Assembly (NCBI RefSeq): GCF_005938745.2
Contig: NZ_VCBX02000001.1
Coordinates: forward strand, 3,010,001 to 3,074,000
From: Rhodococcus sp. KBS0724
GTDB lineage: Bacteria; Actinomycetota; Actinomycetes; Mycobacteriales; Mycobacteriaceae
Reading direction: 5' to 3'
Length of the DNA stretch: 64,000 bases
Part shown: one piece after another, positions 31,544 to 38,552 of the stretch
Position numbering within the stretch: position 1 is the first letter of the stretch
Layout: each line of letters opens with the position of its first letter
Made by a program: the position numbers and the translations under genes
Notes under the pieces: model-generated
Told to the model about the DNA's origin: nothing
The model's database searches: none
What the model saw: only the letters and a program-made list of their open reading frames with translations

Positions 31544-31888
31544 GTGGAAGACACCTTGCCGCCGTGCCCTGAATGTTCCAGTGAGTTCACCTACGAGATG
31601 GGTGCGCTCATGGTGTGCCCTGAATGTGCACACGAGTGGGCACCGGACGACTCGACCGCCGAAGAGGATGGCGTCATCAAGGACGCCGTCGGAAACGTAC
31701 TCACAGACGGCGACACCGTGACGGTTATCAAGACGCTCAAGGTCAAGGGCAGCCCTACCGGAATCAAGTCCGGCACGAAAGTGCGAAACATCCGCCTGGT
31801 TCAGGGAATCGGCGATCACGACATCGACTGCAAGGTCGACGGTATCGGCCCGATGCAGCTGAAGTCGAGCGTCGTCAAGAAGGTCTGA
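31544..31888 (+). CDS. YjdM/PhnA-family zinc-ribbon protein
   Basis: A 114-residue protein named for the phn locus but not a phosphonoacetate hydrolase. The N-terminal zinc ribbon has two Cys pairs ([10 protein letters not shown] and [10 protein letters not shown]). The C-terminal SH3-like PhnA domain shows [20 protein letters not shown] and [19 protein letters not shown]. The family is widespread and its function is not settled. The GTG at 31544 follows AGGGTGA. It is divergent from the TetR gene. Confidence 0.92.
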
Positions 31889-31889
31889 C

Positions 31890-31912
31890 GCACCCCGTTA
31901 GTTCCGGGGTGC
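31890..31912. terminator. bidirectional terminator hairpin
   Basis: GCACCCCG (31890-31897) and CGGGGTGC (31905-31912) form an 8-bp perfect stem with a 7-base loop. It lies one base after the YjdM stop and overlaps the 3' end of the convergent PLDc_N gene. Confidence 0.6.
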
Positions 31913-32143
31913 TCCGTCGGCAATTCTGGATCGCTCGGCCATGCCGTCACTTTTCACGATCACGTAGACGAGTCCCGAGACGAACGGGACCAGGAGCAGA
32001 AAGCACACCCAGACAGCGCGCATCCACCCCGATATCTGACGATCGCGGAAGAGGTCGGCGCTGATCTCGAATAGCAGAACCAGATACGACAGCAGCGCGA
32101 GAGAGATGACGCTGAGCCAGAAGAGTGTCCAGAAGGAATCCAT
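31898..32143 (-). CDS. small PLDc_N-domain membrane protein
   Basis: An 81-residue protein with two transmembrane helices and the PLDc_N core (phospholipase D-like N-terminal membrane module without the catalytic part): FEISADLFRDRQISGWMRAV then LLLVPFVSGLVYVIVKSDGM. It begins 15 bases after the SulP stop and is the last gene of the PPK2-ATPase-SulP run. A paralogue with an added SHOCT domain is at 38172-38552. Such small proteins may be anchors or regulators in the membrane. Confidence 0.8.
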   Translation of the reverse strand: MDSFWTLFWLSVISLALLSYLVLLFEISADLFRDRQISGWMRAVWVCFLLLVPFVSGLVYVIVKSDGMAERSRIADGAPRN

Positions 32144-32158: not shown

Positions 32159-33874
32159 TTACCGGTCAGTCGACGTGTCAGTGTTCCCGCTTCGGCTGCG
32201 GAACTCGTCGACGGCAGCTTCGAGGGTGGGGAAGAAGTGCGTCGAGTCGAACCGGTCGCCGACGCCGAAGCGGATGAGTCGGTCCTTGATCGGCCCCTTC
32301 ATCTCAGCGAACGCGAGTCGGATTCCCTTGCCTTCGAGGTAGATGTCGAGGTCGACCAACTCGTCGACGGCTGTGGTGTCGAGGCCGGTAATCGGCTCTG
32401 CCGCGATGACTACCCATTCGACGGGTGTCGGCGCTGCGGCGACTACCGAGCGCACGTACTCGTCGAAGATCTCACCGTTCGCGAAGAACAGGGGCGCGTC
32501 GAAACGCACCAAGACCAGGCCGGGAATGCGATGTCCATTCGGATGCCGTTCCACGTCGTGGAATCCCGGTAGGTGTGCGGTTTCGACGAGTTCGGTGCGG
32601 TGGGGTTGCCACACCTGTGCAATGACCGCGGCAAACGACAGGCCGATCGCGACGAGAATTCCTTGTAGAACGCCTACCAGTGCAACGCCGAGAAACGCTG
32701 CGACGGCGAGTGCAAACTCGACCGTGCTCATGCGCCACATCCGGACCATGCCACCCACATCGATCAGTGCACAGGCCGCCACGATGACCACGGCCGCGAG
32801 TGTTGCATCGGGCAGATACGCGGTGAGTCCAGGTGCAATCAAGACAAACGCCAACACTGCGAGCGCGCCGACCACTCCCGCCAATTGTGTACGGGCGCCG
32901 CTCTGTTCGGCTACCGGTGTCCGTGAGCCGCTCGCCGAGATCGGAAATCCGCCGAAGAGTCCGCCTGCGACATTGGCGACGCCGATCGCCTTCATCTCGG
33001 TGCTGCCGTTGACGTCTTCTCCGTGCCGGGCGGCAAAGGTGCGGGAGAGAACGCCGGTGTCGGCAAAAGCGATAAGTGCGATACCGGCCGCAGGCCCGAT
33101 CAGGTGCCCGACGTCCTGCCAGCTGACACCTCCAACAGAGGGCAGGGGGAGACCTTCCGGGAGCGCGCCGACCATCCCGATGTCATCCGTCAGACCCGCC
33201 GCGGCGGACAAAATGATTGCGCCGACGACGGCCACCAGGACTCCGGGTACAACCGGGACCCAGAGTCGGAACGCGACGATGACAGCAAGCGAGCCGATCC
33301 CGACGGCGGCAGCGACGGGATCGATATCCCCGCCTACCACTGACTTTCCGATCTCACCTATCTCACCGAGCAAGCCTGATGCGTCGACGGAGAACCCCAG
33401 CAATTTGGGAATCTGACCGACAACAACGACAAGTGCAATGGCATTGAGGTAACCGAGTCGGATGGGCTTCGATAGTAATTCGGTGACAAAGCCGAGGCGC
33501 AGGAACCCGCCGATCAGGAGGATGAGCCCGACAAGGATGGCCAGGACGCCGGCAAGGGCAAGTGCGTTGTCTTCGTCGCCGACGATTGCCAGTGGCAGGA
33601 TCGCCGCGGCGATAAGAGGTGCGAGCGACGAATCCGGTCCCAGGACAAGGATTTTCGACGGCCCCACCAGTGCGTACGCGAGGAGCGGCACGATGGTCGC
33701 GTAGAGACCGGCATACGCGGGGAGTCCGGCGGCTTCTGCGTATCCCATGCCGGCGGGGATCAGCAGGGCCGTGAGGACAAGTCCGGCTGTGATGTCGGTT
33801 CGCAGCCATTCGCGGTGGTACTCCCGGGCTGTTGCGATCCCGGGTAGCCGACCTAGACCCTCTGTCCACGACAT
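32159..33874 (-). CDS. SulP-family anion transporter with STAS domain
   Basis: A 571-residue transporter: 10-14 hydrophobic helices with SulP hallmarks (DITAGLVLTALLIPAGMGYA, GLPAYAGLYATIVPLLAYAL, FPISASGSRTPVAEQSGART) and a cytoplasmic C-terminal STAS domain (about residues 440-555, VRFDAPLFFANGEIFDEYVR). SulP members carry sulfate, bicarbonate or dicarboxylates by symport or exchange; some help CO2 supply. It starts 83 bases after the P-type ATPase stop on the same strand, so anion flow might balance the ATPase activity (inference). Confidence 0.92.
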   Translation of the reverse strand: MSWTEGLGRLPGIATAREYHREWLRTDITAGLVLTALLIPAGMGYAEAAGLPAYAGLYATIVPLLAYALVGPSKILVLGPDSSLAPLIAAAILPLAIVGDEDNALALAGVLAILVGLILLIGGFLRLGFVTELLSKPIRLGYLNAIALVVVVGQIPKLLGFSVDASGLLGEIGEIGKSVVGGDIDPVAAAVGIGSLAVIVAFRLWVPVVPGVLVAVVGAIILSAAAGLTDDIGMVGALPEGLPLPSVGGVSWQDVGHLIGPAAGIALIAFADTGVLSRTFAARHGEDVNGSTEMKAIGVANVAGGLFGGFPISASGSRTPVAEQSGARTQLAGVVGALAVLAFVLIAPGLTAYLPDATLAAVVIVAACALIDVGGMVRMWRMSTVEFALAVAAFLGVALVGVLQGILVAIGLSFAAVIAQVWQPHRTELVETAHLPGFHDVERHPNGHRIPGLVLVRFDAPLFFANGEIFDEYVRSVVAAAPTPVEWVVIAAEPITGLDTTAVDELVDLDIYLEGKGIRLAFAEMKGPIKDRLIRFGVGDRFDSTHFFPTLEAAVDEFRSRSGNTDTSTDR

Positions 33875-33957: not shown

Positions 33958-36744
33958 TCATTGCGCGTGAGCACGCTGAGGGGCGACCGCAGCGGTCGCC
34001 GGGATGCGGATATCCGACTTCGGGAGGCGTCGGCGTCGGATTGCCTTGTCCAACTCGACCACGATCGGAATGATCAGCGACCATCCGATGCAGGCCAGCC
34101 ACTGGCTGCCCGACAACGAGGTTGTCATGAGGAGATCCTGGAGTACTCCTGCCTCCACCGCGAACACGGTGACCACGGTCGGGATGGCCAAGATCTTGAG
34201 TGCGCCGAGCACCGGTGCGACGAGGCCGGATTCCGGATCGCGACGCATGGTCAGTCCGGCGAGGATCGAGCCCAACGACAGCACCACAAACGCCATGGTC
34301 ATGGGAACATTTGCCTCGTCTGTACTCATCTCGCCCGGGGCGAGAAGCATCGCGGCAAGGGTGACGGCAAACTGCAGGATGCCGTACGCCAACCACTGGA
34401 TGACCGCCCGTCGGTTGGCTATCGGTGTCTTGGGGTCGCGGGGCGGCTTCTTCATCAGGTCCGGCGGCGGCGGGTCGAGCATGATGACCGCAACGGGGAA
34501 CAGGGTGATGAAGAAGTGCTGGAACAGCACCATCAGCGGGGTGAGCGCTACACCTTCGTTGATATCGAAGATGCTCGCGGCGAGGAAGAGCAGAACCAGC
34601 GAGAACAGTTTCGACATCTGGTAGCGGATGTAGGACACGATCTTGCCGTAGATGTTGCGGCCCAAACTGATTGCGGTGATCAGGGTCCCGAAGTTGTCAT
34701 CGGTGAGCACCATCTTGCCCGCCTGTTTGGTCACTTCACTGCCTGATCCCATGGCGACGCCGATGTCGGCTTTCTTCAGTGCGGCAGCATCGTTGACAGC
34801 GTCGCCGGTCATAGCGACAACCGCGCCATCCTTCTGCATGATGTCGACCAGGCGTAATTTGTCGGCGGGGGTGACGCGGCCGAAGACATGCAGATTCGGC
34901 ATCGCGGCCGCCAGGTCTTCGTCAGTCAGTGCCTGGAGTTCCGGGCCGCCGATGGCGCCCGGTCCAAGTCCGAGTTCGGCGCCGATCGCAGATGCCGTAA
35001 TTGCGTGATCGCCGGTGATCATGCGGACATGGATGCCGGCCGTGTGTGCAGTGCGGACCGATTCGATCGCCTCCGGGCGAAGCGGGTCGATAATGCCGGC
35101 CATGCCGACAAACGTGAGGTCCTCGACAAACGACATGGGGTCCGTCCCCACGGCTGTTTCCTGCCCATCGAGTCGCCGAACGGCGAAGGCCAGCACGCGA
35201 AGACCCTTCTCGGACATAGTCCGGTTCGCGGCTGTCAATTCTTCACGGACCTCGTCGATCGGAACGGGTCGACGGCCAGGTAGGAACGCTGTCGAGCACC
35301 GAGCCAGGACCACGTCGGGGCCGCCCTTGACCAGTTCCACGAATTGGTTACCGCCGTCCACTTCGAGATGGTGGAACGTCGCCATGAACTTGTATGCCGA
35401 GTCGAAAGGAACTGTTGCGACCCGGGGGTACGTCCTTCTGGTGAGTGGAGCGTCGACGCCGATCTTTGCCGCGAGTACAACAAGCGCGGCCTCGGTCGGG
35501 TCGCCGACAACCTCTCCGGCATCGGAGACGGTGGCGTCGCTGTCAAGGCAGAGACCGTAGGCGAGCAGCGTGAAATCCGGCGGCGCCTCGCCCGCTACCT
35601 GCGTGATTCTTCCGATCTTGGCGTAACCCTCGCCCTCGACGAGGTACCACCGGCAATGGACGTACAGCGACCGCACCGTCATCTGGTTCATCGTCAGCGT
35701 GCCGGTCTTATCGGAGTTGATGGCGCTCGTGGCACCGAGTGTTTCGACGTCGGTGAGGTTCTTTACGACGGCCTTCGCGTCAGCCAGTTGGCGAGCACCA
35801 TATGCCAGCATGGCCTGGACGAAAGTCGGAAGGCCCGTCGGGATTGCGGAGACTCCCATCGCAATACCGAGCAGAAGAAGCGTTGTCAGGTCCTGACCAC
35901 GGATTACGCCGATGACCACAATGATTGTCACCGCACCCCACGCAATGATGCCGAGCAGTTTGGTGAGCGAGTCGAGTTCGCGTTGTAGTGGCGACTTGCC
36001 AGGTGCGACCGCCGACAGCATCGACGCGATCTGCCCAATCTGGGTGTGCATGCCGGTTTCGGTGACCACCATGGTGGCGGTGCCGCGGGTGACCGAAGTG
36101 TTCTGGAACACCATATTGCTTCGGTCGCCGAGGGGAATGTCTGTGGTGCCCAGTGTTTTCGGGTCCTTCGGGATGGGTGCACTTTCGCCCGTCAGTGCCG
36201 CTTCCTGAGTTTCCAACGTGGTGGACGTGAGGAGGCGTCCGTCGGCGGCGACGATATCGCCCGCTTCGAGTTCGACGATATCGCCAGGCACCAGCTCGGT
36301 GGCGTCGAGCTGGATCAAAGTCCCGTCGCGGACAACCCGAGCTTGTGGCGTTTGCATCTTCGCCAATGCGTCCACACTGGCGCGGGCTTTCATCTCCTGG
36401 CGGGTGCCGAGGACGATATTGAGCACTACGAGTACCGCAACCACTATGGCAGTGGGGATTTCACCGATGACAATGCTGACTACGGCAACCGCGACCAGCA
36501 TCAGATTCATCGGATCCCTCAACTGCGCCAGCGCAATCGACCACATCGAGGGCGGCGGCGTCGAGGCAATTTCGTTGGGCCCGTACTGCCGGCGACGGTT
36601 TGCGACGTCGTCAGCACTCAGGCCCGACTCCCGATCAGACGTCAGGGTGGCGACAACGGTTTCGACGCTCTGGGCGTGCCAGGTCGCGCTCTGGGCTGAG
36701 TCTGTGTGCGCTCGATCCTGCGGCGCGGCCTCCGGGTGGCTCAT
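33958..36744 (-). CDS. P2-like P-type ATPase with non-canonical transport site
   Basis: A 928-residue P-type ATPase. All catalytic elements are present: TGES (185-188), phosphorylated Asp345 in NSDKTGTLT, KGGPD, MITGDHAIT, and the hinge motif written TGDAVNDAAALK (normally GDGVNDAPALK). The membrane part is unusual: M4 reads IPTGLP instead of PEGLP (Thr303), M5 has Leu713 and Leu716 where SERCA has Asn768 and Glu771, and M6 has His743, Ile746 and Thr747 where SERCA has Asn796, Thr799 and Asp800. Thus none of the six calcium ligands is kept. The substrate is unknown. AAAGGACGT precedes the ATG. It lies between PPK2 and SulP genes. Confidence 0.9.
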   Translation of the reverse strand: MSHPEAAPQDRAHTDSAQSATWHAQSVETVVATLTSDRESGLSADDVANRRRQYGPNEIASTPPPSMWSIALAQLRDPMNLMLVAVAVVSIVIGEIPTAIVVAVLVVLNIVLGTRQEMKARASVDALAKMQTPQARVVRDGTLIQLDATELVPGDIVELEAGDIVAADGRLLTSTTLETQEAALTGESAPIPKDPKTLGTTDIPLGDRSNMVFQNTSVTRGTATMVVTETGMHTQIGQIASMLSAVAPGKSPLQRELDSLTKLLGIIAWGAVTIIVVIGVIRGQDLTTLLLLGIAMGVSAIPTGLPTFVQAMLAYGARQLADAKAVVKNLTDVETLGATSAINSDKTGTLTMNQMTVRSLYVHCRWYLVEGEGYAKIGRITQVAGEAPPDFTLLAYGLCLDSDATVSDAGEVVGDPTEAALVVLAAKIGVDAPLTRRTYPRVATVPFDSAYKFMATFHHLEVDGGNQFVELVKGGPDVVLARCSTAFLPGRRPVPIDEVREELTAANRTMSEKGLRVLAFAVRRLDGQETAVGTDPMSFVEDLTFVGMAGIIDPLRPEAIESVRTAHTAGIHVRMITGDHAITASAIGAELGLGPGAIGGPELQALTDEDLAAAMPNLHVFGRVTPADKLRLVDIMQKDGAVVAMTGDAVNDAAALKKADIGVAMGSGSEVTKQAGKMVLTDDNFGTLITAISLGRNIYGKIVSYIRYQMSKLFSLVLLFLAASIFDINEGVALTPLMVLFQHFFITLFPVAVIMLDPPPPDLMKKPPRDPKTPIANRRAVIQWLAYGILQFAVTLAAMLLAPGEMSTDEANVPMTMAFVVLSLGSILAGLTMRRDPESGLVAPVLGALKILAIPTVVTVFAVEAGVLQDLLMTTSLSGSQWLACIGWSLIIPIVVELDKAIRRRRLPKSDIRIPATAAVAPQRAHAQ

Positions 36745-36767: not shown

Positions 36768-36813
36768 ATTCTCAGTAGGCAAAATTCTCAGTAGGCAGAT
36801 TATTCAGTAGGGG
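36768..36813. repeat. 16-bp-period tandem repeat between PPK2 and ATPase genes
   Basis: ATTCTCAGTAGGCA occurs at 36768-36781 and 36784-36797, with a third degenerate copy at about 36800-36813. The last copy contains the PPK2 stop codon (minus strand). Confidence 0.75.
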
Positions 36814-37670
36814 GTAGGGATCCAGTGCAGTGGTTGCTGGGGTGCCTTGTATCCGTCGGGCTGTTGTCGGTGTGGCAGTTTGATATCAGGATGTTCCAAA
36901 GGTTCATACGGAATCTGACTCAGTATGTGACTGATGATGTTGAGCCGGCCGCGTTTCTTGTCGTCGTTGACCGCGACATACCAAGGCGCCCATCCTGTGT
37001 CGGTGTAGCGGAACATCTCGTCGCGGGCCCGCGAATAGTCGTACCAATGGCTGTACGACTTCAGGTCGAGGCCCGACAACTTCCAGATTTTCCGTGGGTC
37101 GTCGATTCGGCTCTGCAGGCGCAGCATTTGCTGTTCCTCACTCACCTCGAGCCAGTACTTCAACAGAATGACCCCGGATTCCACGATTGCGCGCTCGACT
37201 GTCGGGATGAGCTGGAGGAATTCGTGTGCTTGTTCGTTCGTGCAGTAGCCCATGACCCGTTCGACCCCGGCGCGGTTGTACCAACTGCGGTCGAAGATGA
37301 CGATCTCGCCGGCGGCTGGTAGATGTGGCACATACCGCTGGATGTACATCTGGGATTTTTCCCGTTCAGTCGGGGCTGGGAGGGCGACAACGCGGAACAC
37401 ACGCGGGCTCACCCGTTCGGTGATCGCTTTGATCACCCCACCTTTTCCTGCAGTGTCACGGCCCTCGAACACGATGCAGACCTTTGCACCGGAAGATTTG
37501 ACCCACTCCTGCAATGCGACGAGTTCTGCGTGAATCGGCTTGAGATCCCGTCGATAAGTCTTGTATTTCATCGGCTTGTGCGTCGAGGTCGAGGAGGGTT
37601 CCACGTCACTGGCTGGGGGAGCTTCGAGCTCAGAGTTCTTGTGTTTCTTGTTCTTCGACTTCTTTCCCAC
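36804..37670 (-). CDS. ppk2: polyphosphate kinase 2 (PPK2)
   Basis: PPK2 moves phosphate between inorganic polyphosphate and nucleoside diphosphates, mostly making ATP or GTP from polyphosphate. The protein (288 residues) has a basic, lysine-rich N-terminus, Walker A FEGRDTAGKGG (69-79), PxxxEREKSQMYIQRY, Walker B-like IFDRSWYNRAGVERVMG, and WAPWYVAVNDDKKRGRLNII, all typical of single-domain class I PPK2. The GTG at 37670 has AGGAG five bases upstream, better than the longer ATG at 37733. It appears to be the first gene of a run with a P-type ATPase, SulP transporter and PLDc_N protein. Confidence 0.93.
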   Translation of the reverse strand: MGKKSKNKKHKNSELEAPPASDVEPSSTSTHKPMKYKTYRRDLKPIHAELVALQEWVKSSGAKVCIVFEGRDTAGKGGVIKAITERVSPRVFRVVALPAPTEREKSQMYIQRYVPHLPAAGEIVIFDRSWYNRAGVERVMGYCTNEQAHEFLQLIPTVERAIVESGVILLKYWLEVSEEQQMLRLQSRIDDPRKIWKLSGLDLKSYSHWYDYSRARDEMFRYTDTGWAPWYVAVNDDKKRGRLNIISHILSQIPYEPLEHPDIKLPHRQQPDGYKAPQQPLHWIPTPY

Positions 37671-38171: not shown

Positions 38172-38552
38172 ATGGAAGGTTTCTGGGAGTTCTTCTGGTT
38201 CATGTTTGTGTGTCTTGCGTTTGTGGCTTATCTGAGCGTGTTGTTCTCGATCATCACCGACCTGTTTCGCGATCACGAGATGTCCGGTTGGGTGAAGGCA
38301 GTCTGGATCATCTTCCTGTTCGTCATCCCCTTCTTGTCCGCGATGATTTACGTGATCGTGAGAAATGACGGAATGACTCAGCGGTCGATGGCTGCTGCCC
38401 ACCGGCGTATGAACGCTCAGGGCGTCTACGTCCGTGACGACGGCGGACAATCTTCGGCTCAGCAGATTTCGGCGGCAAAAGGGCTTCTCGATTCCGGGGC
38501 GATCAACGAAGAGGAATTCCGGGCACTCAAAGCGAAAACCATAATGCAGTGA
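38172..38552 (+). CDS. PLDc_N and SHOCT domain membrane protein
   Basis: A 126-residue protein with two transmembrane helices in a PLDc_N module (SIITDLFRDHEMSGWVKAVW, FVIPFLSAMIYVIVRNDGM) and a C-terminal SHOCT motif (ISAAKGLLDSGAINEEEFRA). SHOCT is a short oligomerisation-type motif. The first 70 residues closely resemble the 81-residue protein at 31898-32143, so the two PLDc_N proteins at the ends of this locus are paralogues. It may assemble a membrane complex (inference). Confidence 0.85.
   Translation: MEGFWEFFWFMFVCLAFVAYLSVLFSIITDLFRDHEMSGWVKAVWIIFLFVIPFLSAMIYVIVRNDGMTQRSMAAAHRRMNAQGVYVRDDGGQSSAQQISAAKGLLDSGAINEEEFRALKAKTIMQ

Follow-up and report, generated by a model that had tools for sequence, protein, structure and literature searches.

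A P-type ATPase of Rhodococcus sp. KBS0724 belongs to a lineage that lacks the calcium ligands of P-type calcium pumps and that, as far as sequence comparison reaches, appears to be genetically tied, in many of its members, to substrate-level sources of ATP, a combination that we believe to be new. The choice of cargo by P-type ATPases is usually read from the acids of M4–M6; here, gene context is a stronger clue than the ligand pocket. Our best explanation overall, to which we assign a probability of roughly 40%, is that the protein is a primary pump for a cargo other than calcium and draws on substrate-level ATP, a reading that includes protons or other monovalent cations as its cargo. We know of no earlier genetic evidence for transport that draws its energy directly from reserves of polyphosphate or arginine, which coupling of this kind to PPK2 or carbamate kinase would provide, and the stepwise loss of acids on one tree, with Lys arising at two pocket positions, would offer a natural series for the study of cargo change. 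The ATPase gene stands in a row of genes within the window, by which we mean the whole 64,000-nucleotide stretch of DNA analysed:

36804..37670, minus strand: PPK2 of the class I type (TIGR03707, 339.5 bits over a cut-off of 301.8), upstream of the ATPase
33958..36744, minus strand: P-type ATPase of 928 aa, P2A-derived according to its Pfam domains and alignments
32159..33874, minus strand: SulP-family anion transporter with a STAS domain, downstream of the ATPase
31898..32143, minus strand: small PLDc_N-like protein (23.0 bits, just under the cut-off of 23.3)

Read along the minus strand, ppk2 is followed after 59 nt by the ATPase gene, after a further 83 nt by sulP and after another 15 nt by the small PLDc_N-like gene, which probably closes the row; a promoter scan found nothing. 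The PPK2 exceeds the TIGR03707 cut-off and carries the Walker A and DRSWYNR motifs of class I. An RBS-like GAGGAG leads us to propose GTG at 37670 as the start codon, the ORF as called mechanically extending to 37733, and on this guessed start the N-terminus is rich in Lys (VGKKSKNKKHKN). Many ATPase-linked class I PPK2s likewise begin with a Lys-rich tail and several unlinked PPK2s begin with acidic residues, these starts also being guesses; such a tail could tether the enzyme to polyphosphate or to the membrane. Across the genome to which the window belongs, one of seven P-type ATPases adjoins one of four PPK2s. The first-pass annotation had recorded neither the strand, nor Lys712, nor the operon-like row with PPK2 and SulP.

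The ATPase reading frame begins with ATG and runs from 36744 down to 33958. It contains the Pfam domains E1-E2_ATPase, Cation_ATPase_N, Cation_ATPase_C and HAD, and its catalytic motifs are intact (TGES at 185, DKTGT at 345, TGDAVND at 646), as the first-pass annotation had stated, which places it in the P-type superfamily. That annotation also read GDAVNDAAALK in place of GDGVNDAPALK, and this substitution is both real and clade-wide: once duplicates were removed, the hinge TGDA[VI]NDAAA[LI] occurred in 60/60 distinct rows of the no-acid clade against 0/148 other aligned ATPases. The M4 sequence is IPTGLP. By fold and descent the protein is a P2A ATPase, its nearest relatives and most of its best fold matches being Ca2+-ATPases, and yet it falls short of the cut-offs of several functional models: the NCBIfam equivalog models of PMR1 type (524.3 bits, cut-off 798.3), SERCA type (468.1, cut-off 703.4) and PMCA type (379.3, cut-off 507.05), the IIC model (373, cut-off 946), and the curated models for P4 flippases (72.4 bits, cut-off 431.25) and P3A H+-ATPases (364 bits, cut-off 615.5). 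The sub-threshold P3A score weakens the proposition that the ATPase is a P3A enzyme, not the proposition that it pumps H+.

We mapped the six SERCA ligand positions, whose residue numbers we take to be the customary ones, by phmmer alignment to LMCA1 and by MAFFT alignment with bacterial ATPases that carry all ligands (signature ENENTD). Both alignments reproduce the replacements claimed at first pass (E309>T303, N768>L713, E771>L716, N796>H743, T799>I746, D800>T747) and place no acidic M4–M6 residue of the window ATPase at an equivalent position. Where a P2A calcium pump has an acidic M4 ligand (E309) and an M6 Asn and Asp (N796, D800), this protein has T303, H743 and T747. The replacements are largely fixed among close homologues: in the best 120 of 7,983 protein matches, the window's own protein included, we counted T 118 and S 2 at position 303, L 120 at 713, L 119 and M 1 at 716, H 106 and N 14 at 743, I 112 and V 8 at 746, and T 119 and I 1 at 747, with no Asp or Glu at any of the six. 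The pocket of the window ATPase also contains, beside H743, a lysine (Lys712) that aligns with S767 of SERCA; 117 of the same best 120 of 7,983 matches share it. The gastric H+,K+-ATPase presumably has a Lys at this same position of M5, and that enzyme keeps its acidic ligands; a gastric-pump reading of K712 was rejected because sister lineages carry other residues there (Q, I, V, G, T, A, L, M or E), for which reason K712 cannot define the family.

Relatives were gathered from genome searches at the level of the phylum (296 genomes), the order (298) and the class (394), in partly overlapping sets, from an all-phyla contig scan (80 loci kept, among the matches listed) and from two protein searches. 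The sampling is mainly of Actinomycetota, other phyla being covered through the listed matches of the contig scan; among these there were at least two loci of the no-acid clade, L038 and L041. Labelled by alignment at the six sites, the relatives form a series from ENENTD (both sites) through ENANMD, EAFNMD and ETFNMD (site II only) and TLFNID or TLYNVD (M4 acid lost) to the acid-free TLL[NH][IV]x, with side groups ELFHVN, DLFHIV, TLYNVN and MLYNIT. In a tree of 72 rows picked from the alignment and built with the ligand columns left out, 28 acid-free rows form a single clade (SH-aLRT 100) whose branch is long (0.67), and this clade is nested in a 44-row ligand-lost clade (support 100), which is itself nested in a 50-row clade with the site-II-only ETFNMD and EAFNMD rows (support 99); the acid-free rows L013, L124 and L134 fall outside the 28. 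In a sister lineage, TLVKVV, position 743 and not 712 carries the Lys. Within Actinomycetota the ligand loss goes back essentially to one origin, and the best explanation of the series is that the ATPase evolved there from one-site (site-II) calcium pumps and would have lost calcium specificity on the way.

Two observations lie beside this history. In L038, L120–L123 and L012, the TLVKVV/TLVKVI lineage, the Lys at the SERCA N796 position is an apparent second gain of Lys in the pocket. The ATPases of a Polyangiaceae MAG (L113:8001-10694, signature ENLNTN) and of two actinobacterial loci absent from the trees (L297 and L307, ENLNAA) have lost E771 and D800 and kept E309 and both Asn, and are perhaps separate ligand losses; all three satisfy our rule for ligand loss, and neither PPK2 nor arcA/GadC was found in the flanks of L297 and L307 or in those of L113.

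Gene neighbourhoods were compared over 201 loci with flanks (80 from genome searches, 80 from the contig scan, 40 added controls and the window), of which 200 have a complete signature; L046, with a partial one, was left out of the counts. The added controls were the remaining usable rows of the phylum search, taken regardless of outcome after the pattern was known, and they raised the ligand-bearing loci from 96 to 134 and the ligand-lost loci from 64 to 66. In the phylum search, 59 of 61 match rows were fetched with flanks, and the contig-edge or partial pieces G575:C49, G898:C1 and two from G194 were left out. The 134 ligand-bearing loci comprise 91 both-site and 43 site-II-only loci; counted by source, 61 are Actinomycetota loci from the genome searches and 73 come from the all-phyla scan. 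A PPK2 lies within 1 kb of 31/66 ligand-lost ATPases, the window's included, against 0/134 ligand-bearing ones, the ligand-lost loci being relatives that share essentially one origin of loss, and some loci have a short flank on one side where a neighbour may go unseen. By class, the linkage is found at 0/91 both-site, 0/43 site-II-only, 7/14 D800-kept (all seven from one genus group), 16/21 M4-acid-kept and 8/31 no-acid loci, with Pseudonocardia kujensis (L057) and a Cryobacterium MAG (L045, its PPK2 only partly present) as examples. At 30 of these 31 loci both genes share a strand, their tblastn matches being separated by -33 to 458 nt. As an enzyme PPK2 is widespread, with one to five matches in 55 of 58 selected genomes, which include most genomes of the site-II group. 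Most ATPases with Q712/N743 are without PPK2 linkage.

For ligand loss against PPK2 linkage over 160 loci, Fisher's test gives a nominal p of 1.5e-15 that ignores kinship. For this association the tree offers essentially one origin of loss and only two independent pairs. The PPK2-linked state changed at least five times on the tree, whether read as gains or losses; that tree held every fifth both-site locus only and left out L244, L044, L051, L068 and L069 (less than 700 nt of flank on one side, no PPK2), which were kept in the counts.

The linked PPK2s themselves are of more than one kind. Our PPK2 tree had 51 rows, 31 from near ATPases and 20 picked from 118 unlinked matches, with the partial PPK2 of L045 left out. 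Thirteen ATPase-linked class I PPK2s form one clade (99/99), apart from 18 unlinked class I rows. The PPK2 of L185, placed among the unlinked PPK2s and 2.5 kb from its ATPase, was rejected as a linked case. Another 17 linked rows belong to a second subfamily (10 with ELFHVN-type and 7 with TLFNID ATPases), of which both members tested exceed the TIGR03709 cut-off; two unlinked rows also join this subfamily, at a point where long branches come together. From these sequences it appears that the type of PPK2 partner switched among lineages and that the pairing with the ATPase persisted, a picture that a broader sample of unlinked PPK2s could change.

PPK2 and carbamate kinase can both form ATP from ADP without respiration, and some relatives stand beside an arginine-deiminase module instead. 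Together, arcA, arcB and arcC occur within about 8 kb on either side of seven ligand-lost ATPases (L171, L214, L219, L221, L224, L226, L231), and arcA at 0/134 ligand-bearing loci; GadC accompanies three ligand-lost loci (L217, L222, L223) against 0/134. An arc gene abuts the ATPase or shares its row at four of the seven, directly adjoining it on the same strand in L214, L219 and L224, and in L171 as part of a row on one strand: arcC, arcA, arcB, permease, ATPase (ELFNTL), permease, ATPase (TLVKVV). The other three modules are without direct coupling to the ATPase: L226 has it on the opposite strand, past a permease; L231, a close relative of L226, has its arc genes on the opposite strand or past a permease; and in L221 almost 4 kb separate it from the ATPase, a PPK2-linked pump. 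About half of the ligand-lost relatives are thus linked to an enzyme that regenerates ATP. The arginine-deiminase pathway yields one ATP per arginine, according to PMC5300872, and in that paper, which concerns arc clusters, the words 'P-type' and 'ATPase' are absent. Among the open-access papers listed, judged by title and opening lines of the abstract in what was a weak search, none named a pairing of PPK2 or of arc genes with a P-type ATPase.

The ATPase probably works with the neighbouring PPK2, which most likely rephosphorylates the pump's ADP at the expense of polyphosphate, so that the pump could run under limited respiration. The tight same-strand linkage and the separate clade of linked PPK2s argue for this partnership; we infer the co-expression of ppk2 and ATPase and the direction of the PPK2 reaction. 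Relatives beside the arginine-deiminase/carbamate-kinase module would have an alternative respiration-independent source of ATP, and its presence beside some of them suggests that ATP supply is what the loci have in common. That PPK2 is instead an incidental neighbour, stress genes clustering in islands in which the ATPase is one of several unrelated members, would fit the DUF6325, SHOCT and PLDc_N-type genes that recur nearby; we think it quite unlikely in view of the immediate same-strand adjacency, the distinct clade of linked PPK2s and the arc modules at other loci.

The cargo of the proposed non-calcium pump would be H+ or another monovalent cation, whose export would keep cytoplasmic pH or membrane potential steady in energy-starved or acid-stressed cells; residues of the pocket, K712 and H743 for example, would replace the lost acids. 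H+ is our preferred but unproven choice, and the weakest step of the argument; it rests on a limit of the F-ATP synthase, an AtpA extension, the arc and gad genes, which belong to acid and energy stress, and titratable pocket residues. At least one titratable pocket residue is kept by 29 of the 31 PPK2-linked pumps, at varying positions and by a post hoc count; the remaining two (L178, L233) have none at the positions examined, which counts against H+, as does the fact that Lys is an unusual proton carrier. From Walker A to its end, the AtpA of the window's genome has 376 residues, a C-terminus that we call extended on the assumption that the E. coli counterpart has about 345. Hydrolysis by the mycobacterial F-ATP synthase builds no significant H+ gradient, according to PMC8698299. 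In its boldest form, the proposal would make these proteins emergency proton pumps that abandoned calcium and became hard-wired to ATP from polyphosphate (PPK2) or arginine (carbamate kinase), which we consider doubtful; were it true, aerobic Actinomycetota could maintain their pH or proton-motive force in the absence of respiration, at times when the F-ATP synthase cannot reverse.

The first-pass view that the protein does not move calcium stands in a narrower form. That it does not do so in the usual way is well supported, though unproven, by the stepwise, clade-wide ligand loss on the tree, its fixation in the 28-row clade and Lys at two ligand-site positions. N743 is, however, retained in many members of the wider clade, and in LMCA1, according to PMC11977196, the Asn of M6 and the backbone carbonyls of M4 are main contacts for Ca2+; weak binding of Ca2+ is therefore conceivable. 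A pump for Ca2+, Mn2+ or Mg2+, weakly held by M4 backbone carbonyls, T303, H/N743 and T747, is nonetheless unlikely, since acids are absent clade-wide and Lys at ligand-site positions would repel cations. If the positive pocket (K712 with H743 in the window ATPase, Lys in M5 and M6 of sister lineages, as K743 in TLVKVV) moved instead an anion tied to polyphosphate metabolism, the SulP gene would be a fitting neighbour, and PPK2 and SulP do occur together in the window, L197 and L207. But the pocket is acidic in PPK2-linked relatives that carry E303, D747 or E712, SulP linkage is confined to few loci, and we know of no P-type ATPase with an anionic substrate; this reading is very unlikely. SulP was also rejected as a conserved partner, being within 1 kb at only 1/31 no-acid and 2/19 M4-acid-kept loci.

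A bacterial flippase for lipids or amphiphiles, in which the acid-free, largely hydrophobic pocket and the M5 Lys would act as in a P4-ATPase, is somewhat unlikely. The window ATPase does have the M5 lysine of P4 pumps: K712 stands at the ATP8A2 K873 position (a Ser in Na/K-ATPase), H/N743 at that of N905, and P4 pumps are likewise non-acidic at the M4 ligand position, these correspondences coming from PMC4937031. However, K712 is confined to one subclade (117/120 of the best 120 of 7,983) and varies in other lineages, the P4 model score is 72 bits against a cut-off of 431, M4 reads IPTGLP, the best fold matches are mostly Ca2+-ATPases, and many ligand-lost relatives retain one acid.

Among characterised systems, a CtpE-type pump differs from the window ATPase in its M4 (VPEGL), a sequence also read in L006, a gene of the same genome that we presume to be CtpE-like. 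The CtpE type (family 23) is likewise a P-type family of bacteria that was at first uncharacterised; its uptake of Ca2+ was demonstrated afterwards, as PMC5615198 reports. Closer is LMCA1, the one-site P2A Ca2+-ATPase of Listeria (PDB 9evc, 6zhf), which keeps E292 in M4, equivalent to SERCA E309 according to PMC11977196, and in M6 two residues, polar or acidic, that contact Ca2+, whereas the window ATPase has T303, H743 and T747. The nearest outgroup on the tree, the actinobacterial site-II-only ATPases (ETFNMD, EAFNMD, ENANMD), are about 39–44% identical; unlike the window ATPase they keep E303 and D747, and their class, in all phyla sampled, is PPK2-linked at 0/43 loci. Much nearer to the window ATPase is its ortholog in Rhodococcus opacus PD630, the closest relative in laboratory use, at 87% identity.

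Several features of the surroundings deserve record. In L171:7762-19257, two different ligand-lost ATPases and two amino-acid permeases lie together, some gene boundaries being shared. In the vicinity of ligand-lost ATPases, genes of DUF6325 type and genes with a SHOCT domain turn up repeatedly (L177, L187, L209, L215, L217, L222, L223, L168; one of each type checked with Pfam). In the window, a second small PLDc_N-type protein is encoded at 38172-38552, so that such genes flank the row on both sides, and one of the two proteins (31898-32143, 38172-38552) has a SHOCT-like tail, just under the cut-off. A YjdM/PhnA zinc-ribbon protein is encoded on the plus strand (31544-31888), just outside the row.
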